From Streptomyces humicola (GTDB taxonomy: Bacteria; Actinomycetota; Actinomycetes; Streptomycetales; Streptomycetaceae), in NCBI RefSeq assembly GCF_024436035.1, contig NZ_JANFNG010000043.1, positions 1 to 48,323 of the forward strand: a DNA stretch of 48,323 nt. Direction: 5' to 3'. Both the position numbers and the translations under genes were made by a program. How positions within the stretch are numbered: the first letter of the stretch is position 1; each line of letters opens with the position of its first letter. This document shows, piece after piece, positions 24,506 through 39,892 of this stretch. A model generated the notes under the pieces. That model was not told the DNA's origin. It was given only the letters and a program-made list of their open reading frames with translations, and ran no database searches.

Positions 24506-26197
24506 TTACGTAGTGATCGCGACCGGGTGGCCAGGTACCTCGGTCAGGCCGGTCTCATCATTGCCCACAAGTCGGCTGACTTCACTGGCCGGGACCGCAA
24601 GGTTAACCGCCCAGAAGTAGATGACCAAGCTCACCGCGGAGACTACCAGCAGGTCCAGCAGGTTCGGCAGCACCGTCAGCTCGCCGCCACCGGAGCGGAA
24701 GCCACCGCTGTCGTAGTTGCCGAGGTAGCCGAGGAGCACGTTCGCTGCCAGCCACACTGGGACCCAGACAAAGCCTTTCCAGTCCGATGCACTTACCGGC
24801 GAGCGTTCATTTCTGAACAACTGAGTCGCCGCGAAGATCAGAAATCCCGCGCCAATCCCTGTCTCGATCTTCCAGGTTGTGTCGAAACCACCCCAGTAGA
24901 TGACCAGGTTCGCGGCGATGAAGCCGATCGGCGCGATCACTGCTGCACCCCTCAACCGGTACGGACGTTTCCGCTCCGGGTCCCGCCGGCGCAGCGCCGT
25001 CAGCGACACCGGGGCGAAGGCGTACATGATCGCGGTGGCAGATGTGATCAGGCCGACCAGGCTCTGCCAGCTTGGGAACGGCAGGAAGGCGACCTCCCCG
25101 ATAACGAAGGCAAGGATTACCCCCCAGACCGGGATGCCGCGGAGCGTGAGCCTGGCAGCGCCCTTCGGCAGGTCGCCGGCATGGCCTTGGGCGTAGGTGA
25201 AGCGAGAGGCGGTGCCCAGGTAGACCAGAGCAGTACCGGCTGGCGAGATGAGTGCGTCGGCGTACAGAATGTAGGCAAGCCAACCTGCGCCTGCCGCCGT
25301 GGCTAGGGTTGCGTACGGGCCGAAGGCGCCCTTGACCATTGGCTTGTCCCAACCATGCACGAGGTCGGCTGGGTTGAGCGAGCCGATAAACGCGACCTCC
25401 AGCAGGATGTACGTCAGCGCGCTGATGACCATGGCGATCAGGATCGCGCGGGAGATGTCTTTCTGCGGGTTGCGTGCCTCACCACCGAACTGTATGCACT
25501 GTTCGAAGCCCTGCGCGGCGAACACCACACCCGCTGGTAGTGCGGCGAAGACGCCCTGTGGGCCCTTGGCGAAGAAACCACCGCCCGCAGCAAAGTTGCC
25601 GGGGTGGAAGGAGAGCGTGAGCAGCACCACGATGGTAAGCAGTGGGATCGCCATCTTCCACATCACGGTGATCGAGTTGCTCTCGGACAGGAATCTGACG
25701 CCGACCAGATTGATCACTGTGAACAGCGCCATCAGTACCGTTCCCCAGAGCAATCCGCTGCTGGTCAACGTGGAGGTCTGCTGGTTCAACAGATGCAGGT
25801 GGGTGTTGGCCCAACCGATGTTGTCCAGGTAGGTCAGGCTCGCCTCTACCTCGACCGGCGCGAGCGTAACTGCCTGCAACCAGGCCGCCCAGCCAGCAGC
25901 GAAGCCTGCCAGTCGACCGAATGCGAAGGCGGGAAACCGTGCGGTGCCGCCGGCGACCGGGTAGGCCGTGCCGAGTTCGGCGTGGATCAGCGCGAGTACA
26001 CCGAGGATCGCGGTGGCCAGAAGCCAGGAAAGCAACGACGCAGGACCTGCATGTGTTGCCGCCTTGTACGCACCGAGCAGCCAGCCAGACCCGATGATCG
26101 AACCCAGCGAGATCATGGTCAGTCCGAACACCCCGACGGACCGGTGCAGCTTCGCTTGACGAGGGGCTGACATGCCGGAGTGTTTCACTTTTGTCAT
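24506..26197 (-). CDS. APC-superfamily amino-acid permease
   Basis: A 563-residue integral membrane protein with about 12 hydrophobic segments. TM1 carries the broken-helix substrate motif (MISLGSIIGSGWLLGAYKAA), and a later conserved block FAAQGFEQCIQFGGEARNPQ corresponds to the E-containing TM6 region of the APC family, followed by KDISRAI. It should import amino acids by proton or sodium coupling; the substrate is not predictable. ATG 26197 is set by AGGAGC five bases upstream. It is monocistronic, with a terminator behind it. It is the only clear single-amino-acid transporter in the window and lies 6 kb from the hydroxyproline operon, which has no transporter of its own, so hydroxyproline/proline uptake is one possible but unsupported role. 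Confidence 0.93.
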   Translation of the reverse strand: MTKVKHSGMSAPRQAKLHRSVGVFGLTMISLGSIIGSGWLLGAYKAATHAGPASLLSWLLATAILGVLALIHAELGTAYPVAGGTARFPAFAFGRLAGFAAGWAAWLQAVTLAPVEVEASLTYLDNIGWANTHLHLLNQQTSTLTSSGLLWGTVLMALFTVINLVGVRFLSESNSITVMWKMAIPLLTIVVLLTLSFHPGNFAAGGGFFAKGPQGVFAALPAGVVFAAQGFEQCIQFGGEARNPQKDISRAILIAMVISALTYILLEVAFIGSLNPADLVHGWDKPMVKGAFGPYATLATAAGAGWLAYILYADALISPAGTALVYLGTASRFTYAQGHAGDLPKGAARLTLRGIPVWGVILAFVIGEVAFLPFPSWQSLVGLITSATAIMYAFAPVSLTALRRRDPERKRPYRLRGAAVIAPIGFIAANLVIYWGGFDTTWKIETGIGAGFLIFAATQLFRNERSPVSASDWKGFVWVPVWLAANVLLGYLGNYDSGGFRSGGGELTVLPNLLDLLVVSAVSLVIYFWAVNLAVPASEVSRLVGNDETGLTEVPGHPVAITT

Positions 26198-26762
26198 GAT
26201 GTGCTCCTAGTTCAGTGATCAGTTCGGCGCCCCGGCTTGTGCCCACCTGTCACAGCTCGAAGTGAACCGGCGGGTGGCTGATGGTCCGAATCCGAGAGGG
26301 ACGGCCCCGTGTTGCGGTCAGGGGAGGAGTGAGGAGGGGGAGCTCCCTCCCGGGAGCCTCCGTCGTCGCATCCGCGGTCGGGTCGGAAGGATGATCCGCC
26401 GACAAGGGTGGGTTTGGCGTGGTAACTGCGTACGTGACTTGGACGGCAGCTCTTAGGCGTTCGGGCCGTCAGTGTGGAGGCTTTGGCGCCCGATCCTTCT
26501 CCCGGCCGCCGCCTCCCAACTCTCCCTGAAACCGGGTGAGGAGCGATATGGCGAGCAGAGTATGGCATGGCGGGCAGCAGTGCAATATGACATGGCGCAA
26601 TTCGTGGAGGCATCTTCTCGCGGCTCGCCACCTGGGACGGTGCCATGCGGGCGGACCGAGCCCCACCGTCGAGGCGATGGAACCGGAGGACAGAGAGATG
26701 CCCCTGAACTACTCCGTCGGCTCCTTGCGGCGAAGGGATTCCAAGGCTGGGCGGGGCGGGCT
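26198..26762. other. Intergenic region, 565 nt, no gene seen
   Basis: Upstream of the APC permease on one side and the cyclodeaminase pseudogene on the other. Frames on both strands are short and Arg/Pro-rich. It is GC-rich with several possible hairpins, but none fits an RNA family I can name with confidence. Confidence 0.45.
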
Positions 26763-27545
26763 GTGAGGGCCAGGCCGGGTTATACGCCACATTCGCTTAT
26801 CGACGCGGCCGCTGTGGAGGCGACGTTGCCGATCAAAGCGGCGATCAGAGCACTCCAGCAGGCACTGCGGGACGGGATCGATCCCGAGCAAGACCCTCTC
26901 CGCAGCGTGCTGCCGGTAGAGCACGGCCAGCTCTTGCTCATGCCCGCCCATGGGCGGGCGTACGCGGGGGTCAAGATCGCCAGCGTCGCACCAGGCAACC
27001 CGGCGCGGGGACTCCGCGCATCCAGGCGCACCATATGTTGTTCGAGGCCGAGACGCCGGCACCGGTCGCCCTGATTGACGGTATCGCGCTGACCAATATC
27101 CGCATCGCAGCAGCCTCCACTGCCGCGGCCGACTACCTCGCTCCTCGTAAAGCATCCCGGGGTTGGTGATCTTCGGTGGTGGTCCGCAAGCGCTCAGCCA
27201 CCTTCGGGCGCTCCGCGCTGTCCGTGCCATCAGCCACGTCACTGTTGTCGGCCGCAATCTCGCCCGCGCTCGGCAGCTCGTGGAGCACTTTCCGCGCACC
27301 AGCGGAGTACGCATGATGGCGGGGGCCGACGGCGGTGGCAGCAGCCGATCTGATCGCGTGCTGTACGACGGCCCGCACACCGTTGTTCGACGCAGCCCTG
27401 CTGTCGGCTCACAGCGCCGTGATCGCTGTCGGTTCACATGAACCAGACGCTCGGGAAGTCGATGCACACACCGTCTGTAGTTCCATCGTGGTTGTGGAGT
27501 CATGCGCCGTCGCCACTCGAGAGGCCGCCACGTCCGAGGTATCTG
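26763..27545 (+). pseudogene. Ornithine cyclodeaminase/mu-crystallin-family protein, frameshifted
   Basis: The protein is recoverable in pieces from changing frames: LIDAAAVEATLPIKAAIRAL, then VLPVEHGQLLLMPAHGRAYA and GVKIASVAPGNPARGL; after a shift ETPAPVALIDGIALTNIRIA; then a stop after YLAPRKASRGW; then the Rossmann fold VIFGGGPQALSHLRALRAV with HVTVVGRN; finally HSAVIAVGSHEPDAREVDA and VVVESCAVATREA. This is the whole order of the ornithine cyclodeaminase/ketimine reductase family up to about residue 245, where IS-like sequence begins. Family members include ornithine cyclodeaminases, alanine dehydrogenases and delta-1-pyrroline-2-carboxylate reductases of the 3-hydroxyproline route. At least three frame disruptions plus the IS relic make it non-functional. 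Confidence 0.8.
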
Positions 27546-27601
27546 GGCCGGAGAGCACGGCGTGGATCGTGAGATCGGCCGCTCTGAGCCAACCCCATCT
27601 G

Positions 27602-28250
27602 GGTGACCGGAGGTTCCCCGAAGCTTCCGGACAAGGACCCAATAGGGTTGCCCTGAAGAGGAAGAGGGAGAAGGCGCCACCGAGCAAGTACTCGCCGGAG
27701 TTCCGTGAGGAAGCTGTCCCAGATCGCGCTGAGGTCGAGCAAGACGATCTCGGAAGTTGCCCGAGAACTTGAACTGAACCCAGAGACACTTCGGGGCTGG
27801 GTGAAGAAGTACCAGAACAGCGGGAACCGTCGCCGAGAACGCGGAATTGTCGGTGAGCGAGCGGGCTCGTCTGAAGGAGCCCGAACGGCGCAACGTGAGC
27901 TTGAGATGGAAGTCGCCTTCCGGAAAAGAGCCACAGCGTACTTGGCGAAGGATCCCCAGCAGCGAGCAAGTACGAGTTCATCGATGAGATGCGACTCGGC
28001 ATGGTGGAGTACGCGTACAGCGTCGGGGTCATGTGCGACCGGCTCGGCGTGTCCAGAGCCGGCTACTACGACTGGCGATCCCGTCCGGAATCCGTGGCAA
28101 GAGGTGGTACTGGCGGTCTTCAGCCCGGGCGACACGGCGGGAGCTAGCCGCCCGGGCAGGAGAAGCGCAGGATGAAGCGCCTTGGATCGGCCCACTCCGA
28201 CCAACCTGGTGGAGCGGACTGCCGGGTTCGACGGGTCGTTCGTAATTCAA
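27602..28250 (+). pseudogene. IS3-like element relic (orfA and start of orfB)
   Basis: The orfA part reads SKYSPEFREEAV, then in another frame QIALRSSKTISEVARELELN and PETLRGWVKKYQ (helix-turn-helix of IS3 orfA), then ELEMEVAFRKRATAYLAKDP in yet another arrangement. The beginning of orfB follows as SKYEFIDEMRLGMVEYAYSV, GVMCDRLGVSRAGYYDWRSR, after which the integrase core is missing. The left end may be near TGACCGGAGG at 27602, because cyclodeaminase sequence stops just before it; the right end is not defined. No target duplication could be recognised. It interrupts or truncates the preceding cyclodeaminase gene. Confidence 0.8.
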
Positions 28251-31510: not shown

Positions 31511-31526
31511 GTTCAAAGAAACGAAC
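31511..31526. promoter_or_regulatory. Putative XRE-cupin operator O1 (distal)
   Basis: GTTCAAAGAAACGAAC: GTTC and GAAC arms separated by eight bases, matching the spacing of O3 and O4. It lies about 255 bases upstream of the regulator start. Confidence 0.4.
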
Positions 31527-31704
31527 TGACAGGCAGTCGCGCACGGCGATCCCGAAACGTTGACCGGAGCCGAAAGAACTGACCCTTGGCAGCCGGCCGG
31601 GACAGCCGTAAGGCGTCCAGAGTCCGCCGCCGTCCAGTGAAGACGACGCTCGACCGACATCGCCGTCGCCACCGGGGCAGCCCGCGTGTCACGATGACCT
31701 CAGC

Positions 31705-31720
31705 GGTCGGTTTAACGAAC
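31705..31720. promoter_or_regulatory. Putative XRE-cupin operator O2 (imperfect)
   Basis: GGTCGGTTTAACGAAC fits the G.TCG..T.AA.CGAAC-like pattern of O3 with one mismatch in the left arm. It starts 34 bases before O3, close to three helical turns, so side-by-side binding is plausible. Confidence 0.4.
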
Positions 31721-31738
31721 GCGGGTCGCATCTAGCTC

Positions 31739-31754
31739 GTTCGATAAAGCGAAC
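31739..31754. promoter_or_regulatory. Putative XRE-cupin operator O3
   Basis: GTTCGATAAAGCGAAC, a 5-6-5 inverted repeat 26 bases before the regulator's GTG. It is the exact reverse complement of O4 at 32442, which stands in front of the catabolic operon. This is what an autoregulated repressor with one main target would show. Confidence 0.7.
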
Positions 31755-31780
31755 GGCTTTGGGTCTCGAAGGGGAGAGCG

Positions 31781-32410
31781 GTGGAGCACCAGGGCGAGTC
31801 GGTACGGGGCATGCTGGCGGAGAATCTCCGTCGGGCCAGGGTGCAGCGTGGGCTGTCGCTTTCGGAGCTGTCGCGGCAGTCGATGATCGGTAAGGCGACC
31901 TTGTCGCAGTTGGAGGCGGGTACGGGGAATCCGACGATCGAAACGGTGTTCAGTCTGTCGCGGGCACTGCAGATGCCGATCTCTGACCTGCTGGAACAGC
32001 GGCCGACCGGCGGTATGACTGTGGTGCGGGCGGCTGAGGCGGAGGTGCTCCGCGGTGAGGCGGTCGAGCTGCGCCCGCTGCGGCGCATCGAGTGCGGGAA
32101 CACCGTGTTCGAGGTCTACGACCAGCGGGTTCGGCCGGGGCGCAAGCAGGATTCGCTGGGTCATGTCGGCATCGAGCACACCATCGTGCAGGCCGGGGCC
32201 CTGGGTGTGGAGGTCGACGGCCGTCAGGTGGAGCTCGGTCCGGGTGACTATGTGGGGTTCGACGCGGCCTGCCCGCACAGTTACACGGCGGTGGACGGGC
32301 CGGTGTGGTCGGTGCTGCTGCTGCAGTACCGCGCCGATCAGCGGTCCAACGCAGCCCTGCCGCATCATCCGGGGGGCTCTTCCGCCGATCCCCTCAAGGG
32401 CGGCTGTTGA
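31781..32410 (+). CDS. XRE-family regulator with C-terminal cupin domain
   Basis: A 209-residue regulator. Residues about 12-65 are an XRE helix-turn-helix (LRRARVQRGLSLSELSRQSM, IGKATLSQLEAGTGNPTIET). Residues about 110-195 are a cupin-type barrel (GHVGIEHTIVQAGALGVEVD, ELGPGDYVGFDAACPHSYTA) that probably binds the inducer. GTG 31781 follows AAGGGGAG. It lies directly upstream of the hydroxyproline operon, and identical inverted repeats precede both its own gene and the operon, so it is the likely local repressor. The natural ligand may be hydroxyproline or a pathway intermediate; this is inference. Confidence 0.9.
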   Translation: MEHQGESVRGMLAENLRRARVQRGLSLSELSRQSMIGKATLSQLEAGTGNPTIETVFSLSRALQMPISDLLEQRPTGGMTVVRAAEAEVLRGEAVELRPLRRIECGNTVFEVYDQRVRPGRKQDSLGHVGIEHTIVQAGALGVEVDGRQVELGPGDYVGFDAACPHSYTAVDGPVWSVLLLQYRADQRSNAALPHHPGGSSADPLKGGC

Positions 32411-32441
32411 CATCTCTGACCTGCCGCCGTAGCCTCAGGTC

Positions 32442-32457
32442 GTTCGCTTTATCGAAC
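32442..32457. promoter_or_regulatory. Putative XRE-cupin operator O4, in front of the hydroxyproline operon
   Basis: GTTCGCTTTATCGAAC is the exact reverse complement of O3. It is immediately followed by AAGGAGG (32458-32464) and GTG 32469, so a bound protein would cover the start of the transcript or the ribosome-binding site. Confidence 0.7.
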
Positions 32458-32468
32458 AAGGAGGTTCT

Positions 32469-33677
32469 GTGTACGGAACGCGGGTCGTGGTGCTGGGGGC
32501 CGGGATCGTCGGTGCCGCATGCGCTCGCGAGCTGGCCGAGGCTGGGCTCGAGGTCACCGTCATCGAGCGTGACCGTCCCGCAGGTGGCACGACCTCACAT
32601 GGCGAAGGCAACGTCTTGGTCTCCGACAAGGGGCCGGGTCCCGAGCTGGCGTTGACGCTGCTGTCTATGCGCCTGTGGCCGCAGGTTCTCGCCGCGCTTG
32701 CCGACCGCGGCGCGGCCGACACTGCCGCGGTGGAGTGGGATCCCAAGGGTGGGATCGTCGTCGCCACGACCGAGGACGGTGCCGCCGAGCTGGACCGGTT
32801 CGCGGCAGCCCAGAGGGCTGCCGGGGTGCTGGTCGAGCGGCTGGACTCCGCGGCGTTGGCCGCGGCCGAGCCTCGGCTGACCCGGGAGGTCACTGCAGCC
32901 TTTCACTATTCCGGTGATGCCCAGGTCCAGCCAGCCGGCGCCGCGACGGCCTTGTTGTCGGCTGCGGTCGCGGCGGGGGCCACCGTCCGCACTGGTTGTG
33001 AGGTGCTGGGCGGGACGGTCCGCGGTGGCAGGCTGATCGGGGTGCGAACTTCAGCTGGAGCGCAGGACGCCGACATCGTGGTCAACGCGACAGGCCCGTG
33101 GTCCGGTGATGTATCGGCGCGGATCGGGGCGCCGATCGCGGTGCGCCCCCGTCGAGGTGAGGTCCTGGTGACCACGCCCATGCCGCCCACCGTCTTTCAC
33201 AAGGTCTACGGCGCGGACTATATAGCCGCGGTCGGCAGCGGTTCGGCCGCGCTGCAGACCTCGGCGGTGGTGGAGTCCACCCGTGCGGGAACCATTCTGC
33301 TCGGTTCCTCGCGCCGCCAGGTGGGGTTCGATGACCGGCTTCGCCCGCACGTGCTGTCCGCCATCGCCGTCAAGGCGCTTCGTCTGTTCCCGTGCCTTGC
33401 CGACACAGCGGTGATGCGTTGCTACGGCGGTTTCCGGCCCTACGTGGACGACCATCTGCCGGTGATGGGACCGGATCCGCGGCTGCCCGGGCTGTGGCAC
33501 GCGACCGGTCACGAGGGTGCCGGGATCGGCTTGTCCGTGGGCACCGCCAGGTTGCTGCGCCAGCTTGTCCTCGGTGAGACGCCGGACATTGACACCACCG
33601 CGTTTCGGGTCGACCGTCCGGCCGTGCTGGGCGCGTCCAACGCCACGACCACTCACAAGGAAAGGGGTCTGGCATGA
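32469..33677 (+). CDS. FAD-dependent amino-acid oxidoreductase, D-hydroxyproline dehydrogenase subunit
   Basis: A 402-residue DAO-family flavoprotein and first gene of the operon. The N-terminal dinucleotide fold is VVVLGAGIVGAACARELAEA with ERDRPAGGTT; the C-terminal FAD-binding end is ATGHEGAGIGLSVGTARL with FRPYVDDHLPVMGPD. GTG 32469 is set by AAGGAGG five bases upstream. In actinobacteria and proteobacteria a DAO-like subunit, a small 2Fe-2S protein and a second FAD/NAD subunit form a membrane-independent dehydrogenase that oxidises cis-4-hydroxy-D-proline to pyrroline-4-hydroxy-2-carboxylate. Exactly those three genes follow each other here (ATGA overlap with the next). It closely resembles the N-terminal relic at 1474. 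Sarcosine- or octopine/nopaline-oxidase-like complexes are the alternative, but the downstream enzymes favour hydroxyproline. Confidence 0.9.
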   Translation: MYGTRVVVLGAGIVGAACARELAEAGLEVTVIERDRPAGGTTSHGEGNVLVSDKGPGPELALTLLSMRLWPQVLAALADRGAADTAAVEWDPKGGIVVATTEDGAAELDRFAAAQRAAGVLVERLDSAALAAAEPRLTREVTAAFHYSGDAQVQPAGAATALLSAAVAAGATVRTGCEVLGGTVRGGRLIGVRTSAGAQDADIVVNATGPWSGDVSARIGAPIAVRPRRGEVLVTTPMPPTVFHKVYGADYIAAVGSGSAALQTSAVVESTRAGTILLGSSRRQVGFDDRLRPHVLSAIAVKALRLFPCLADTAVMRCYGGFRPYVDDHLPVMGPDPRLPGLWHATGHEGAGIGLSVGTARLLRQLVLGETPDIDTTAFRVDRPAVLGASNATTTHKERGLA

Positions 33678-33982
33678 GCCCTCATCTCGTCCCCGTCGAG
33701 CACGACAGCGTGGGCAGGAACGACCGACCGCTACAGATCACGGTGGACGGGGAGCCGGTGCCCGGGATCGTGGGGCAGAGCCTGGCCGGGGTCTTGCTCG
33801 CCGACGGGCGTCTTTCGTGGCGGCGCGGCCCGTCCGGCGCGCCGCGCGGGGTGTTCTGCGGGATCGGCGCCTGCTTCGACTGCCTGATCACGGTCAACGG
33901 CGTACGGGACGTCCGTGCCTGTCGACGGCGCGCCGCCGACGGCGACGTGGTGGAAACCCAACGTCGCGACGAGGAGCGTTGA
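33674..33982 (+). CDS. (2Fe-2S)-binding subunit of the D-hydroxyproline dehydrogenase
   Basis: A 102-residue ferredoxin-like protein. The N-terminal half has the beta-grasp start PLQITVDGEPVPGIVGQSLA. The cluster cysteines are visible in FCGIGACFDCLI and a fourth in RACRRRA, spaced C-x4-C-x2-C...C as in the sarcosine-oxidase-delta/HcnA-like small subunits. Its ATG overlaps the stop of the preceding gene (ATGA), and its own stop is followed one base later by the start of the large subunit. It should carry electrons between the two flavin subunits. Confidence 0.9.
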   Translation: MSPHLVPVEHDSVGRNDRPLQITVDGEPVPGIVGQSLAGVLLADGRLSWRRGPSGAPRGVFCGIGACFDCLITVNGVRDVRACRRRAADGDVVETQRRDEER

Positions 33983-33983
33983 G

Positions 33984-35435
33984 ATGGCGGTGCGTCAGGT
34001 AGCGGTCGTCGGAGCAGGTCCGGCGGGACTGGCGGCCGCAGAAGCGGCGCTGAGTGCCGGGGCCACGGTGACGGTGATCGAGTCGGCGGAGCAGCCCGGC
34101 GGGCAGTACCACCGCATGCTGCCTCGTGCCTACCAAGCCACTCATCCTCAGCGGCTGCAGCACCACTGGCGGGCCTTCGAGCGCCGCCGCCGCGCGCTGC
34201 TGCACCCGGATTGCACCTGGTGGCCGGAGTGCACGGTGTGGGCGCTCGAACAGGCCGAGCCGGGGATGCCGCCGCGGGTACACGTCCTTGACGGCTCTGT
34301 GGACGGCACCGGCAGGCCGCGCCGGGTCCTCGAGCCGGACGCGCTGGTGCTGGCCACTGGCGTACATGACCGGGTTCTCCCCTTCCCCGGCTGGGAGTTG
34401 CCGGGCGTATTCACCGCCGGCGCCGCCCAGGCCCTGGCGAAGGGCGAGCGGGTGGTGGTCGGCGACCGGGTGGTGATTGCGGGGACCGGCCCCTTCCTCC
34501 TGCCCGTTGCGGCCTCGCTCACCGAGGCCGGGGCCGGCGTGCTGGCCGTGCTGGAGGCCAATCGGCCGGCCACGGTGCTGCGGGGCTGGGCTTCCCGGCC
34601 GTGGGAACTGGCCGCGCAGGTCGGCAAGGCGGCCGAACTAGCCGAGTATGTCGTCGGCCAGGTGCGGCACAAGGTGCCTTACGCAATGGGGCAGGCCGTG
34701 ATCGAGGCGCGGGGCGACGGCCGGGTCGAGGAGGTGGTCATTGCCCGCGTCGACCCGGACTGGTCGGTGATCGCGGGCAGCGAACGCACCCTCGCCGTCG
34801 ACGCGCTCTGCGTCAGCCACGGATTCAGCCCCCAGCTCGAGCTGCCCATGGCGGCGGGCTGCGCGTTGACCGCCGCCGGGTTCGTCGAGGTGGACGAGGA
34901 CCAGAGGTGCAGCGCGCCCGGGGTGTACGCGGCGGGGGAGATCACCGGCATCGCGGGCGCACCGGCGGCCGTCGCGGAGGGTACGGTCGCCGGGTGGTTC
35001 GCGGCAGGCGGGGCCCCTGCCGCGGTCTCCGCGGCTCGGCGCCGGGCCGCGGCAGGGCGGGCCTTCGCACGGCGGCTGGCCCGCGCGCACCCGATTGGCA
35101 CCGCCTGGCCGGACTGGCTGCGGGAGCAGACCGTGGTCTGCCGTTGCGAGGAAACCACCTATGCCGCCCTGTGCCGTGCGGCCGGCGCCCCAACCCGGGA
35201 AGACCCGCGCGCCGTCAGGCTCGCTACGCGTGCCGGCCTCGGCCCTTGCCAGGCGCGCATCTGCGGCCAGACCGTCACGGAAATCACCGCCCGCGCGCGC
35301 GAACAAGCGGACGCACCACGGGCTGAGCCGCACCGCAGACCGATAGCCCAGCCGATACGTCTCGGCGAACTCGCGGCACCCGCCGCACAAGCCGGCCCGT
35401 CCGACAGGCCGAACATGAAGGAGAGCGAATCATGA
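33984..35435 (+). CDS. FAD/NAD(P)-binding subunit of the D-hydroxyproline dehydrogenase, with C-terminal 2Fe-2S motif
   Basis: A 483-residue flavoprotein. The first dinucleotide fold is VAVVGAGPAGLAAAEAALSA with E-rich partner VIESAEQPGGQYHRM, a second one near VVIAGTGPFLLPVAASLTEA, and the FAD-domain end APGVYAAGEITGIAGAPAA. The C-terminus has a Bfd/SoxA-like cluster site VVCRCEE...GLGPCQARIC. ATG 33984 is chosen over the longer frame from 33915 because GAGGAG precedes it and the fold then starts correctly. It belongs with the two preceding genes; HcnB-like or opine-oxidase-like large subunits have the same build. The C-terminal 45 residues are rich in Ala/Pro. The start of the next gene overlaps its stop as ATGA. 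Confidence 0.9.
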   Translation: MAVRQVAVVGAGPAGLAAAEAALSAGATVTVIESAEQPGGQYHRMLPRAYQATHPQRLQHHWRAFERRRRALLHPDCTWWPECTVWALEQAEPGMPPRVHVLDGSVDGTGRPRRVLEPDALVLATGVHDRVLPFPGWELPGVFTAGAAQALAKGERVVVGDRVVIAGTGPFLLPVAASLTEAGAGVLAVLEANRPATVLRGWASRPWELAAQVGKAAELAEYVVGQVRHKVPYAMGQAVIEARGDGRVEEVVIARVDPDWSVIAGSERTLAVDALCVSHGFSPQLELPMAAGCALTAAGFVEVDEDQRCSAPGVYAAGEITGIAGAPAAVAEGTVAGWFAAGGAPAAVSAARRRAAAGRAFARRLARAHPIGTAWPDWLREQTVVCRCEETTYAALCRAAGAPTREDPRAVRLATRAGLGPCQARICGQTVTEITARAREQADAPRAEPHRRPIAQPIRLGELAAPAAQAGPSDRPNMKESES

Positions 35436-36361
35436 ACCAGAAGTCCCGCGACACCGATCTGGGCGGCGTCGTCGTGGCCACTGCTCTGCCGTACCGCGAG
35501 GATCCCGCCGCGCCTGCGGGGCTCGCGGTGGACTACGACCGCTATGCCGAGCACTGCCGCTGGCTGGTGGACAACGGCTGCGACGGGGTCGGCCCCAACG
35601 GCTCGCTCGGCGAGTACTCCTCGCTCACCGACACCGAGCGGCGGGACGTGGCGCGCACCGCCATCGAGGCCGTGCGGGGTCTGGGCATCGTGGTCGTCGG
35701 CGTGCACGGCGTCGGAGCCCACCAGGCCAGGCACTGGGCGGAGGTGGCAGCCGAGGACGGGGCCGACGGGGTGCTGTGCCTGCCACCCACGATGTACCGG
35801 GCGAACCGCGGTGAGATCATCGAGCACTACGCGGCGGTCGCCTCGGTCGGCCTTCCGGTGATGGTCTACAACAACCCGATCGACACCAAGGTCGACCTGA
35901 CCCCCGACCTGCTCGCCGAGATCGCACAGATCGACAACGTGGTCGCGGTCAAGGAGTTCTCCGGTGACGTGCGGCGGGTGCTGGAGATCAGGGAGGCCGC
36001 GCCCGGCCTCGACGTGATCAGCGGTGCCGATGACGTGGTGCTGGAGAGTCTGCTGATGGGCGCGCGCGGATGGTTCGCCGGATTCCCCAATGTCTTCCCG
36101 GCCGAGTCCGCCCGGCTGTACGACCTCGCCACTGCAGGACGGCTCGCCGAGGCGCGGGAGCTGTACGCGTCGCTGGTCGCGGCCTTCCGCTGGGACTCCC
36201 GCACCGAGTTCGTGCAAGCGATCAAGCTGGGAATGGAACTCGTCGGACGCTACGGCGGCCCCTGCCGCCCACCGCGCGGTCCGCTGAGCCTTGAGCACGC
36301 CGAGCGGGTCCGGGCCGACATGGCCCGTGCCGTTGCAGCCGTCGAGAAGCTGGTCGTCTGA
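35432..36361 (+). CDS. DHDPS/NAL-family lyase, probable pyrroline-4-hydroxy-2-carboxylate deaminase
   Basis: A 309-residue class I aldolase-fold enzyme. Family marks are the substrate loop GPNGSLGEYSSLTDTERRDV (GxxG[S/T]xGE), the catalytic Tyr in PVMVYNNP and the Schiff-base Lys in VVAVKEFSGD, then the GADDVVLESLLMGARGWFAG block. In the hydroxyproline route a member of this family removes ammonia from the imine made by the dehydrogenase, giving alpha-ketoglutarate semialdehyde. Position between the dehydrogenase and the epimerase/ALDH genes supports that role over dihydrodipicolinate synthase. Its stop overlaps the epimerase start as TGATG. Confidence 0.88.
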   Translation: MNQKSRDTDLGGVVVATALPYREDPAAPAGLAVDYDRYAEHCRWLVDNGCDGVGPNGSLGEYSSLTDTERRDVARTAIEAVRGLGIVVVGVHGVGAHQARHWAEVAAEDGADGVLCLPPTMYRANRGEIIEHYAAVASVGLPVMVYNNPIDTKVDLTPDLLAEIAQIDNVVAVKEFSGDVRRVLEIREAAPGLDVISGADDVVLESLLMGARGWFAGFPNVFPAESARLYDLATAGRLAEARELYASLVAAFRWDSRTEFVQAIKLGMELVGRYGGPCRPPRGPLSLEHAERVRADMARAVAAVEKLVV

Positions 36362-37362
36362 TGCGCACCATCCGGGCCATCAGCGCTGTCGACTCGCACA
36401 CCGAGGGCATGCCCACCCGGGTGATCACCGGGGGAGTCGGCCCCATCCCAGGAGACAGCATGGCAGAGCGCCGACGGTACTTCGCCGAACACCTCGACGG
36501 TCTGCGGCGGTTCCTGGTCAACGAGCCTCGCGGCCACGCGGCGATGAGCGGCGCGATCCTCCAGCCGCCCACCCGGGACGACGCCGACTGGGGCGTGCTC
36601 TACATCGAGGTCAGCGGCCTGTTGCCGATGTGCGGGCACGGCACCATCGGTGTGGCGACGGTACTGGTGGAGACCGGTATGGTGCACGTCACCGAGCCCG
36701 AGACGGTCATCCGGCTGGACACACCCGCCGGGCTGGTAATCGCCAAGGTGGCCGTCCGCGACGGCGCCGCCGAGCACGTCACCCTGCGCAACGTGGACTC
36801 CTTCGCTGTCGCCCGCGACGCCACCGTGCGGGTGCCCGGCATCGGCACCGTTCGCTACGACCTGGCCTACGGCGGCAACTTCTACGCCATCGTCGAACTC
36901 GACACCATCGGGCTGCCGTTCGACCGTGGTCGCAAACAGGAAATCCTGGCGGCCGGGCTGGCCATCATGGAAGCCATCAACGAGCAGGACCGGCCCCGGC
37001 ACCCGGTCGATCCTCTCATCTCCGGCTGCAAGCACGTGCAACTGCTCGCACCCGGCTCCACCGGCCGCCACTCCCGCCACGCCATGGCGATCCACCCCGG
37101 CTGGTTCGACAGGTCGCCGTGCGGCACGGGCACCAGCGCACGCATGGCACAGCTGCACGCCCGCGGCGAACTGCCGCTGCACACCACGTTCGTCAACGAG
37201 TCCTTCATCGGCACCCGGTTCACCGGCCGTCTCGTCGGCGACACCACCGTCGGCGGAATCCCCGCGGTCATCCCCGAGATCACTGGAGGCGCCTGGATCA
37301 CCGGCATTGCCACCTACCTGCTCGACCCGACCGATCCCTTCCCCCACGGGTTCGCGCTGTAA
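36361..37362 (+). CDS. 4-hydroxyproline 2-epimerase (proline racemase superfamily)
   Basis: A 333-residue racemase-fold enzyme that interconverts trans-4-hydroxy-L-proline and cis-4-hydroxy-D-proline. Both catalytic cysteines are present: Cys in LLPMCGHGTIG and Cys in FDRSPCGTGTSARMA. The Cys/Cys pair points to a true epimerase or proline racemase; dehydratases of trans-3-hydroxyproline carry Thr in place of the second Cys. The start HTEGMPTRVI and the length match the family. Operon context decides for hydroxyproline over proline. The next gene follows after 43 nt. Confidence 0.93.
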   Translation: MRTIRAISAVDSHTEGMPTRVITGGVGPIPGDSMAERRRYFAEHLDGLRRFLVNEPRGHAAMSGAILQPPTRDDADWGVLYIEVSGLLPMCGHGTIGVATVLVETGMVHVTEPETVIRLDTPAGLVIAKVAVRDGAAEHVTLRNVDSFAVARDATVRVPGIGTVRYDLAYGGNFYAIVELDTIGLPFDRGRKQEILAAGLAIMEAINEQDRPRHPVDPLISGCKHVQLLAPGSTGRHSRHAMAIHPGWFDRSPCGTGTSARMAQLHARGELPLHTTFVNESFIGTRFTGRLVGDTTVGGIPAVIPEITGGAWITGIATYLLDPTDPFPHGFAL

Positions 37363-37405
37363 GCGGTCGAACCCCGACGACGGCGGTTGCCGCGAAAGGA
37401 CCGCA

Positions 37406-38857
37406 TTGACCACGACGCAGACCACTGACATCGAGCCGATCGTCGAGACGGCGGCCACCGCGTCCCACGCCTGGGCCGCCACGGCTCCGGCGGAGCGGGC
37501 CGTGGTGTTGTCGGCGATCGCCGACGCCCTCGACGCCGAAGAGGGGACGCTCGTCCCCCTGGCCGACGCCGAGACCCACCTGGGCCGGACGCGGCTCAGC
37601 GGCGAGTTGAGGCGCACCACTTTTCAACTCCGCTTCCTCGCCCAGACGGTGCGCCGCGCGGCCTTCTACGACGTACGCATCGACCGCGCCGACGAGACGT
37701 GGCCGCCGGGCCCCCGCCCTGAGCTGCGGCGATACCGCACCGCCATAGGCCCCGTCCTCGTCTTCGCCGCCAGCAACTTCCCGTTCGCGTTCAGCGTCGC
37801 GGGCGGGGACACCGCCTCGGCGTGGGCAGCCGGCTGCCCGGTCACGGTCAAGGCCCATCCCGGCCACCCGCGGCTCTCCAGGCACACCGCGCGCACTGTC
37901 AGCCGGGCCATCGCCGAGGTCGGCGCACCGGCCGGCCTGTTCAGCCTGATCGAGGGCGAACAGGCCGGGGTCCAAGCACTGCGACACCCGAGAATTCGTG
38001 CCGCGGCTTTCACCGGTTCCATCACCGGCGGCCTGACACTGGCACGCATCGCCGCCGAACGGCCGGAACCGATCCCGTTCTACGGCGAGCTGGGCAGCAT
38101 CAATCCCGTCGTGGTCACCCCCGGCGCTGCCCGGGCGAGGATCGAGGAAATCGCCCTCGGCTACGTGGCGTCACTGACCCAGGGCGCCGGACAGTTCTGC
38201 ACCAACCCCGGACTGCTGTTCGTGCCCGCAGACAGCCCACTCGCCGAACGCGTCGCGGAACTGCTGCACGAGGTGGCCGCCGCACCCATGCTCAACCAGC
38301 GCATCGCCGACGCCTACCTGGCCGTCGCGCACAAGCTCGCCACCCGCTCCGGAATGCAGAAACTCTGCTGGCCGCAGGATCCTGCCTCGCTCGCTCCGCG
38401 ACTGCTGCACACGACGCTGGAGGTGTTCCGGGCCGACCAGGAGGCCATGGCGGAAGAGTGCTTCGGCCCTCTCGGGGTGGTGGTGAGCTACGACAACCTC
38501 ACGGAGGTCACTGCCGGCATCGTTGCGCTGCCCGGTCAGCTCACCACCACCGTGCACGCCGAGGAGGACGAGGCACGCAGTAACCCAATCCTGGCCCTTC
38601 TCGCCGATGCCCTCACCGACCGCAGCGGCCGGGTCATCTGGGGTGGTTGGCCGACCGGTGTAGCTGTCACCCACGCCATGCACCACGGCGGCCCGTTCCC
38701 GGCGACCACAACACCTGCCGGCACATCGGTCGGCACAGCAGCCCTCGAACGCTTCCTACGCCCAGTGGCCTACCAATCCTGGCCACAGCACCTGCTGCCA
38801 CCACCACTGCGCGACGACAACCCATGGGGGATACCACAGCACAGAGACGACTCGTGA
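37406..38857 (+). CDS. Alpha-ketoglutarate semialdehyde (2,5-dioxovalerate) dehydrogenase
   Basis: A 483-residue aldehyde dehydrogenase, last step of the pathway, giving alpha-ketoglutarate. Visible residues: the oxyanion Asn in VLVFAASNFPFAFSVAGGDT, cofactor-binding Lys in CPVTVKAHPGHP, catalytic Glu in FYGELGSINPVVV and the nucleophile Cys in GAGQFCTNPGL, then EECFGPLGVVV. The end GVAVTHAMHHGGPFPATT is typical of the semialdehyde dehydrogenase subgroup. TTG 37406, behind GAAAGGA, is the most probable start; the open frame to 36926 only overlaps the epimerase gene. The ALDH tail in the relic at 1474-1942 is of a different subtype (PFGGTKASSHG), so that relic was not a simple copy of this gene. 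Confidence 0.92.
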   Translation: MTTTQTTDIEPIVETAATASHAWAATAPAERAVVLSAIADALDAEEGTLVPLADAETHLGRTRLSGELRRTTFQLRFLAQTVRRAAFYDVRIDRADETWPPGPRPELRRYRTAIGPVLVFAASNFPFAFSVAGGDTASAWAAGCPVTVKAHPGHPRLSRHTARTVSRAIAEVGAPAGLFSLIEGEQAGVQALRHPRIRAAAFTGSITGGLTLARIAAERPEPIPFYGELGSINPVVVTPGAARARIEEIALGYVASLTQGAGQFCTNPGLLFVPADSPLAERVAELLHEVAAAPMLNQRIADAYLAVAHKLATRSGMQKLCWPQDPASLAPRLLHTTLEVFRADQEAMAEECFGPLGVVVSYDNLTEVTAGIVALPGQLTTTVHAEEDEARSNPILALLADALTDRSGRVIWGGWPTGVAVTHAMHHGGPFPATTTPAGTSVGTAALERFLRPVAYQSWPQHLLPPPLRDDNPWGIPQHRDDS

Positions 38858-39087: not shown

Positions 39088-39892
39088 TCAGGCTGCTTGC
39101 TGGTACTCGTTGATGAGCCCGCCGAGTAGTTGGGTGCGGCGGATGCGACCGTCGAGCGGTATTACGGGGGCTGGCAGTCCGGACTCTGCGGCCTGGGGTG
39201 GTCGTTGATGAAGGGTTGGTGGGGGCGGTGCCGGTTGTAGTGGTCGGTGTAGGTGTCCAGGACGATGCGTAGGTGCCGCTCGTTCATGATGAGGATGCGG
39301 TCGGTGCACTCGCGGCGGACGGTGCCGACCCAGCGTTCCGCGAAGGCGTTTGCCTTCGGCGATCTCGGCGGGGAGAGGAGGACCTGCACTCCTGCCCCGG
39401 CGAGGACGGCGTCGAAGGCATGGGAGAACTTCCCGTCCCGGTCCCGCAGGAAGAACCTGAACCGATGGAGTTGGTCTTCGAGGTCCGTCATCAAGTTCCG
39501 CATTTGCTGGGTCACCCAGTCCCGGTTCGGGTGCGCGGTGACGCCCAGGATGTGCACTCGACGCGTGGAAACTTCCATGACGATCAGCACGCACAGGCTG
39601 CGGCAGAACGCGGTGTCGACATGGAAGAAGTCGCACGCCAGTAGCCCGGAGGCCTGGGTGTGTAGGAAGGAGGCCCAGGTGTCGCGCGCCCGCTGGGTTG
39701 CGGGCGGGATGTTGCCTTGCCGCAGTACCGCTCGGACGGTGGCGGCGGAGACGGTGATGCCCAACCGGGCAAGCTCCCCCTGCACCCGCCGGTGGCCCCA
39801 CAAGGGGTTCTCCCGCCCGAGACGTAGGATCAACTCTCGTGTCTCGTGCGGGATTGGCGGCCGACCGGGCCTGTTGTGCGGGTCTCCTGCAG
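39088..39892 (-). pseudogene. Integrase-core (rve) transposase, 5'-truncated and frameshifted
   Basis: The main open part reads GRENPLWGHRRVQGELARLG, then LACDFFHVDTAFCRSL (first Asp), RFFLRDRDGKFSHAF (second Asp), SPKANAFAERWVGTVRRECT (Glu) and YNRHRPHQ. Near 39180 a frameshift separates the conserved end VIPLDGRIRRTQLLGGLINE, which stops at 39088. In-frame sequence extends upstream to about 39890 (RPGRPPIPHETRELILRLG) and is then cut by the carboxypeptidase fragment, so the N-terminal part found in the copy at 44031-44794 is lost. IS3/IS481-like family; both relics lie on the same strand. Confidence 0.85.

Follow-up and report, generated by a model that had tools for sequence, protein, structure and literature searches.

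Palindromes flanking an XRE-cupin regulator gene of Streptomyces humicola as predicted operators of a hydroxyproline-type operon

Two palindromes of 16 bases, both of the form GTTCG-N6-CGAAC, flank the gene for a regulator of the XRE-cupin type in Streptomyces humicola, and the second of them lies directly before a six-gene operon of the hydroxyproline type. Comparison with related loci makes it very probable that the two palindromes are operators of the adjacent regulator, through which it represses the operon and, probably, its own gene. Gene, operon and sites lie within one stretch of 48,323 nucleotides (the window, i.e., the whole of the DNA that was analysed). The first-pass annotation of the window had proposed a newly visible operator for this regulator family, and the proposal is supported, as a prediction, by the conservation of the sites and by the way in which they track with the regulator. 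The system is of a known kind and this member of it is apparently undescribed: no description of XRE-cupin control of hydroxyproline genes, or of this operator, was found in the open-licence PMC literature.

The regulator gene, the operon and the palindromes

The regulator has the two parts that define an XRE-cupin protein: an XRE helix-turn-helix at the N-terminus (HTH_3, residues 16-70, E 1.2e-13) and a cupin sensor domain at the C-terminus (Cupin_2, residues 115-170, E 2.2e-08). A structure model of modest confidence (mean pLDDT 73, pTM 0.47) has helices over residues 8-71, followed by strands. The Cupin_2 domain 6b8w matches this model with a TM score of 0.83 by target length, and 1y9q is a whole-chain relative by sequence (E 2.3e-14). 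The nearest kin of the regulator in the tree are from Actinomadura and Amycolatopsis, although the genome is that of a member of the Streptomycetaceae. A transposase gene with an integrase core (rve_3) lies just after the operon (39165-39833, minus strand), and open reading frames that by appearance may be pieces of transposases lie at about 27335-28200, a few kb before the regulator. These elements, together with tree kin outside the Streptomycetaceae, hint at lateral transfer.

The six genes of the operon and the other features are listed in Table 1. Families of an epimerase, a dehydrogenase, a deaminase and a semialdehyde dehydrogenase co-occur in the operon (Pfam); the DAO, 2Fe-2S and Pyr_redox_2 proteins are likely to be subunits of one dehydrogenase, and the six families together make up what we take to be the trans-4-hydroxy-L-proline pathway. 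With the NCBIfam models, the epimerase-like protein scores 344.1 bits as a proline racemase (cutoff 556) and 338.4 bits as a 4-hydroxyproline epimerase (cutoff 376), i.e., below the cutoff in both cases. Near an amino-acid permease gene of the window (24506-26197, minus strand), no site of up to two mismatches occurs in 26101-26700.

Table 1. Positions in the window of the regulator gene, the operon genes, the predicted operators and the promoter elements
Feature	Positions	Strand	Basis or remark
Weaker secondary operator (predicted), GGTCGGTTTAACGAAC	31705..31720	+	one arm mismatch; 34 bp before main regulator-side site
Weak -10-like TAGCTC (putative), abutting regulator-side operator	31733..31738	+	sequence read
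Main regulator-side operator (predicted), GTTCGATAAAGCGAAC	31739..31754	+	exact dyad, conserved upstream
XRE-cupin regulator (HTH_3 + Cupin_2), 209 aa, GTG start, recognition-helix Gln43	31781..32410	+	Pfam
-35 hexamer TTGACA, overlapping regulator stop codon	32407..32412	+	sequence read
-10 hexamer TAGCCT, 17 bp after TTGACA	32430..32435	+	sequence read
Main operon operator (predicted), GTTCGCTTTATCGAAC	32442..32457	+	expected transcription start; exact site 3' of regulator in 78/81 rows
Secondary operator (predicted), GTTCTGTGTACGGAAC	32464..32479	+	two arm mismatches; spans operon GTG start; 22 bp from main site
FAD-dependent amino-acid oxidoreductase (DAO), D-hydroxyproline dehydrogenase-like	32469..33677	+	Pfam DAO 4.2e-68
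2Fe-2S protein (Fer2_4)	33674..33982	+	1.5e-21
Pyr_redox_2 oxidoreductase	33981..35435	+	2.1e-26
DHDPS-family enzyme, hydroxypyrroline-carboxylate deaminase-like	35432..36361	+	Pfam DHDPS 1.8e-49
Proline racemase superfamily, 4-hydroxyproline epimerase-like	36361..37362	+	Pfam Pro_racemase 3e-128
Aldehyde dehydrogenase, 2-oxoglutarate semialdehyde dehydrogenase-like; start unsettled	37379..38857	+	Pfam Aldedh 4.6e-36

Direct reading of the letters confirms two exact sites on opposite strands, one before the regulator and one touching the Shine-Dalgarno sequence, as the first-pass annotation had described: the site before the regulator is the exact reverse complement of the site before the operon, which is followed directly by AAGGAGG (32458-32464) and then by the GTG start at 32469. 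The palindrome that spans this start codon was absent from the earlier list of sites. When up to two mismatches are allowed, 44 matches are obtained in the window and 32.6 +/- 6.2 in shuffled sequence; a count so near to chance means that loose matching carries little information.

Conservation, promoters and the proposed mechanism

Conservation was assessed in 81 rows, i.e., the window and 80 orthologue loci picked by protein sequence alone (the best 80 of 224 matches). The rows span six genera in three families (Streptomyces, Kitasatospora, Streptacidiphilus, Actinomadura, Actinoallomurus and Amycolatopsis), and many of the loci are close kin, so the 81 rows are not independent events. A set of 21 orthologues (55-73% identity) from 200 genomes of the family partly overlaps the 80 loci, hence counts use only the 80 and the window. 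The upstream region was taken as the 300 bases before the regulator match; the downstream region ran from where that match ends up to the first gene of the operon, or over 350 bases in loci that lack this gene.

The best upstream site has no arm mismatch in 34 rows, one in 46 and two in one; the best downstream site has none in 78, one in one and three in two. The motif, whose absence from orthologous operons the first-pass annotation had named as a ground for giving up the operator, is thus present there, within one mismatch upstream in 80 of 81 rows and exactly downstream in 78 of 81. The two rows with no downstream site within two mismatches are L081 and L089, the latter of which has a divergent operon with two exact sites in the shared region. 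G022, the most divergent orthologue beside an operon (55-58% identity), has a downstream site two mismatches away and none within two upstream. An unbiased scan for dyads (arms of five bases, spacers of 0-20) ranks GTTCG-N6-CGAAC first in both regions, with 34/81 and 78/81 rows, whereas the maximum that any dyad reaches in 20 mononucleotide shuffles is 6 upstream and 4 downstream.

The consensus is C-GTTCG-N-TWWA-N-CGAAC-G. Position 7 is occupied by T and position 10 by A in 58/81 upstream and 74/79 downstream sites; the 16-base site is preceded by C in 65/81 and 76/79, respectively, and followed by G in 72/81 and 68/79. The centre tends to be TA(A/T)A upstream and T(T/A)TA at the operon, and the opposite orientation of the two sites is thus a weak conserved tendency.

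Second sites of up to two mismatches were counted 37 times in the 81 rows at 22 or 23 bp after the main downstream site, and 34 times at 32-34 bp on either side of the best upstream site. The two weaker copies of the first-pass annotation fare differently in this respect. The copy at 31705 (plus strand) fits the recurrent second site about 33 bp away; the copy at 31511, GTTCAAAGAAACGAAC, has one mismatch among its ten arm bases but is unconserved, since a site of up to one mismatch 150-300 bp before the main upstream site occurs in 2/81 rows (the window and one other), and it is probably a chance match. In relatives, the second site at the start codon is GTTCGATGTACGGAAC or GGTCGATGAACCGAAC, and the third codon of the first operon gene is there the rare GGA or CGA. 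Codon 3 is GGA in 28/72 rows and CGA in 11/72 (gene starts were chosen by script and a few are doubtful), against 7.3% of glycine codons and 2.7% of CGN codons, respectively, in the same gene overall. GGA also stands at codon 3 in some loci that have no second site, so the rare codons were rejected as proof of a second operon site and are only suggestive of one.

In the window, TTGACA-N17-TAGCCT is followed by the operator from 32442, at the expected transcription start, and then by the Shine-Dalgarno sequence. The same arrangement recurs among relatives. TTGAC occurs within 45 bp before the downstream site in all 72 operon-linked rows and in 0/7 rows without the operon, and TAnnnT follows it at a spacer of 16-19 in 72/72. 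Where the regulator lies away from the operon (L056, L082, L091, L098, L104 and L108), a conserved downstream site is present without the TTGAC promoter. On the regulator side, TAnnnT within the 14 bp before the site is found in only 27/81 rows (in some Actinomadura rows TATAAT or TATACT stands against the operator), thus autorepression is less well supported, and rests more on the site than on the promoter.

In the mechanism that we infer, a dimer of the regulator would bind C-GTTCG-N-TWWA-N-CGAAC-G, with each helix-turn-helix reading one GTTCG arm. The operon site would cover the expected start just after TTGACA-N17-TAGCCT, and a dimer bound there would block RNA polymerase. The weaker second sites lie about two turns of the helix after the operon site and about three turns from the one at the regulator, and may make binding tighter; a pathway metabolite that binds the cupin domain would presumably release the regulator from the DNA. 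Possibly, the regulator binds these sites and activates the operon, as some regulators act both ways and the sites do not reveal the sign. This is unlikely: in every one of the 72 operon-linked rows the distance from the start of TTGAC to the main operon site is 27-40 bp (35-40 bp in 64 rows, 27-28 bp in 8), which places the site level with the -10 element or just beyond it, where repression is the likeliest mechanism. In addition, XRE-cupin factors of Pseudomonas aeruginosa are described as local repressors (PMC7901475).

Distribution of the dyad in genomes

In the genome of 7,069,061 bases, the exact dyad GTTCG-N6-CGAAC is found 26 times and the reversed pattern 6 times; the density of the dyad is about 0.18 per 48 kb, and the window has two. 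The TWWA-centred form, with up to one mismatch, is found at four places in the genome, three of them in the window, and its control at 0. The genome scan suggested in the first-pass annotation therefore finds the specific form to be rare, not common at random.

The one match to GTTCGNTWWANCGAAC within one mismatch elsewhere in the genome is GTTCGGTATACTGAAC (G000:C13:79631, L139:8632-8647), with an aldehyde dehydrogenase gene on one side and an IclR gene on the other, and near a gene for a 5-dehydro-4-deoxyglucarate dehydratase. IclR matches at E <= 1e-60 were obtained in 84 of 121 genomes searched. For the best 30 of these loci, a one-mismatch palindrome precedes the match by 79-107 bp in 27, a two-mismatch palindrome is present in 2 and there is none in 1 (L283), and the XRE-cupin orthologue is present in only 2 of the 30 genomes (G000 and G025). 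As relatives that lack the orthologue retain it next to their IclR gene, GTTCGGTATACTGAAC was rejected as part of the XRE-cupin regulon, and judging by this pattern it is probably the IclR gene's own operator.

Among 21 relatives that have an orthologue, 51 places match GTTCGNTWWANCGAAC within one mismatch, against 2 for the reversed control. Thirty-five are at the regulator, two are at an unlinked peptidase gene and 14 are elsewhere: nine of the form GTTCGGAAAACCGAAC, one IclR site and four others (the stray matches include G136:C23, G060:C334 and G025:C99:52993). GTTCGGAAAACCGAAC was rejected as a site of the regulator: the inspected case (G136:C4, L142:6232) lies inside a longer hairpin, GGGGTTCGG...CCGAACCCC, and no link to the regulator was seen.

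The pathway and the regulator can be separated in the sample of 200 genomes of the family, for each of which 15 candidates were scored in the regulator search. Twenty-three genomes have an epimerase match at E <= 1e-165. The five epimerases of at least 78% identity (own genome included) all have a regulator orthologue beside the operon; the other 18 genomes, at 74-77%, include none of the 22 with a regulator match better than 1e-50. The control stretches were these 18 clusters and the clusters of 16 genomes in which the orthologue lies elsewhere (33 stretches of 16,001 bases and one of 10,952). In the fetched stretches, 0/34 of these hydroxyproline clusters without an adjacent orthologue have an exact dyad or a TWWA-form site within one mismatch. 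A 35th stretch, that of G022 (orthologue beside the operon, epimerase 72%), also has no such site, the best being two mismatches away. By sequence comparison, the dyad is found to track the regulator rather than the pathway.

These distributions also bear on whether another regulator with a similar palindrome, chiefly ClgR, binds the sites while the XRE-cupin gene is merely adjacent. ClgR recognises a palindromic form, GTTCGC-N4-GCGAAC. This form fits 0/81 upstream and 0/79 downstream sites, although G095 (an orthologue outside the 81) has GTTCGCTAAAGCGAAC, a full fit to it, and CGC is present on at least one arm in 40/81 upstream and 41/79 downstream sites. Thus, cross-binding by ClgR at some loci is possible. 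ClgR of Streptomyces, which regulates protease genes and shares with the regulator an XRE-type helix-turn-helix, is said to recognise GTTCGC-5N-GCG, i.e., the same GTTCG half-site (PMC9775585); the N5 form also has 0 fits, but it cannot fit GTTCG-N6-CGAAC by construction. The regulator itself scores weakly against the ClgR protein model (26.9 bits, below the cutoff of 170). Given that the sites accompany the XRE-cupin gene and are absent from the 34 comparable clusters, ClgR or a similar protein is very unlikely to be the main binder, and the adjacent regulator remains the preferred one. The LexA SOS box, tCGAAC-N4-GNNCGa (PMC9380542), is likewise a 16-bp palindrome of CGAAC and GTTCG letters, but with the arms in the opposite order to that read at both window sites.

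In 16 genomes of the Streptomycetaceae, the regulator lies away from the hydroxyproline cluster. In 13 of these it is directly divergent from a gene of the Xaa-Pro aminopeptidase type (AMP_N and Peptidase_M24 domains in the one copy tested), with a one-mismatch site between them; in the remaining three, the peptidase gene is 1.6 kb away (G113) or on another contig (G164 and G158, of which G158 is a fragment). Sites of up to two mismatches are present on both sides of the regulator in 15/16, and in G164 only upstream. Two one-mismatch sites, which begin at 175 and 102 bp, lie upstream of the peptidase gene of G164 on its other contig (G164:C16, L140:8802-8890); this would fit action of the regulator in trans. 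Among the 80 orthologue loci, 72 have a HypO-type gene, 7 have no such gene but have the peptidase gene beside the regulator, and 1 has neither. In the tree, 73 hydroxyproline-linked regulators form a group (support 89/93, not starred) that excludes the peptidase-linked ones, and G022 falls outside both.

The dyad in paralogues and the recognition helix

The dyad is also found upstream of related XRE-cupin genes and is thus not private to the regulator of the window. Seven XRE-cupin paralogues (L027-L033) are divergent from a gene judged by eye to be azlC-like, and six of them have two exact GTTCG-N6-CGAAC sites 48 bp apart; L031 has no exact site. There is no linkage in the genome of the window between the azlC gene (C22; Pfam AzlC 2.7e-34) and an XRE-cupin paralogue (C28), but each has sites at its 5' end (L217 and L218). 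Among 40 further paralogue upstream regions, hand-picked from more than 100 listed, 26 have the exact dyad, against none in 50 shuffles. A second dyad, CCGAC-N6-GTCGG, is present in 15/40 of these regions. It was rejected as a paralogue operator, as among 20 loci re-read its exact form occurs only in two that also bear the GTTCG dyad, and it may be coding sequence of a neighbouring gene.

Residue Q43 of the recognition helix is invariant in 22 aligned orthologues and presumably corresponds to Gln33 of the 434 repressor, a base-contacting residue with which it aligns. In a comparison of 28 paralogues (8 and 20 loci, L328-L347 with L027-L034), those with the recognition helix TLSQLE have the dyad in 12 of 13 cases, and it is present in 0/15 of those in which the position of Q43 is Gly or Glu; as the 20 were selected so as to contain every one of the 14 dyad-free members of the 40, plus 6 that have the dyad, this ratio is not a frequency, and by estimate the correlation rests on only about five clades.

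A perfect inverted repeat beside a Shine-Dalgarno sequence could form a short stem in the mRNA, and the palindromes could in principle be RNA hairpins or another structural element rather than protein sites. This is extremely improbable, as the same dyad precedes the regulator, an unlinked peptidase gene and paralogous regulators alike, and its presence correlates with a residue of the recognition helix; all of this favours sites for a protein.

Perhaps, GTTCG-N6-CGAAC is a shared operator frame of an actinobacterial XRE-cupin branch that includes regulators of hydroxyproline, Xaa-Pro peptidase and azlC-like genes and at least one more group. In this tentative wider reading, Gln43 would set the GTTCG arm, and the central six bases (TWWA here) and the spacing of the sites (22-23, about 33 or about 48 bp) would separate the paralogues. 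The regulator would have changed neighbours, between the hydroxyproline operon and the Xaa-Pro peptidase gene, and taken the operator along, so that both targets may answer one collagen-type peptide signal.

Known systems and significance

XRE-cupin factors of Pseudomonas (ErfA, PsdR, PauR and others) are described as local metabolic repressors with palindromic sites (PMC7901475). They resemble the regulator of the window in domain architecture, adjacent metabolic targets, palindromic sites and suspected autoregulation, and differ from it in that the latter belongs to an actinobacterial clade with a hydroxyproline-type operon. Two further hallmarks of the type are found in the window: metabolic targets beside the regulator, and a palindrome in its own promoter (poorly defined) as well as in that of the target. 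Three consensus sequences from Pseudomonas are termed quite different from each other, and the same paper makes no mention of hydroxyproline (PMC7901475). A survey of 2025 covered 27,732 proteins and arrived at 223 predicted clusters of XRE motifs; its main text contains neither GTTC nor CGAAC, and the motif of the window may be among its supplementary motifs (PMC12565409).

A repressor of hydroxyproline genes has been described in Streptomyces: HypR of Streptomyces coelicolor represses the L-hydroxyproline utilisation operon and has the motif CTNTGC(A/C)ATGTCAC (PMC6608401). HypR is a GntR-family protein, whereas the regulator of the window has HTH_3 and Cupin_2 domains, and there is no GntR family among its six Pfam hits. 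The present findings suggest a second, unrelated control of hydroxyproline breakdown in actinobacteria besides HypR. They provide a specific operator, open to testing, for a group of regulators in the Streptomycetaceae, Thermomonosporaceae and Pseudonocardiaceae, and the link between a helix residue and a half-site offers the start of a DNA-recognition code for XRE-cupin factors, for which few motifs have been defined. Together with its operator, the operon promoter could be put to use as a metabolite-responsive switch in actinobacteria when the inducer has been identified.
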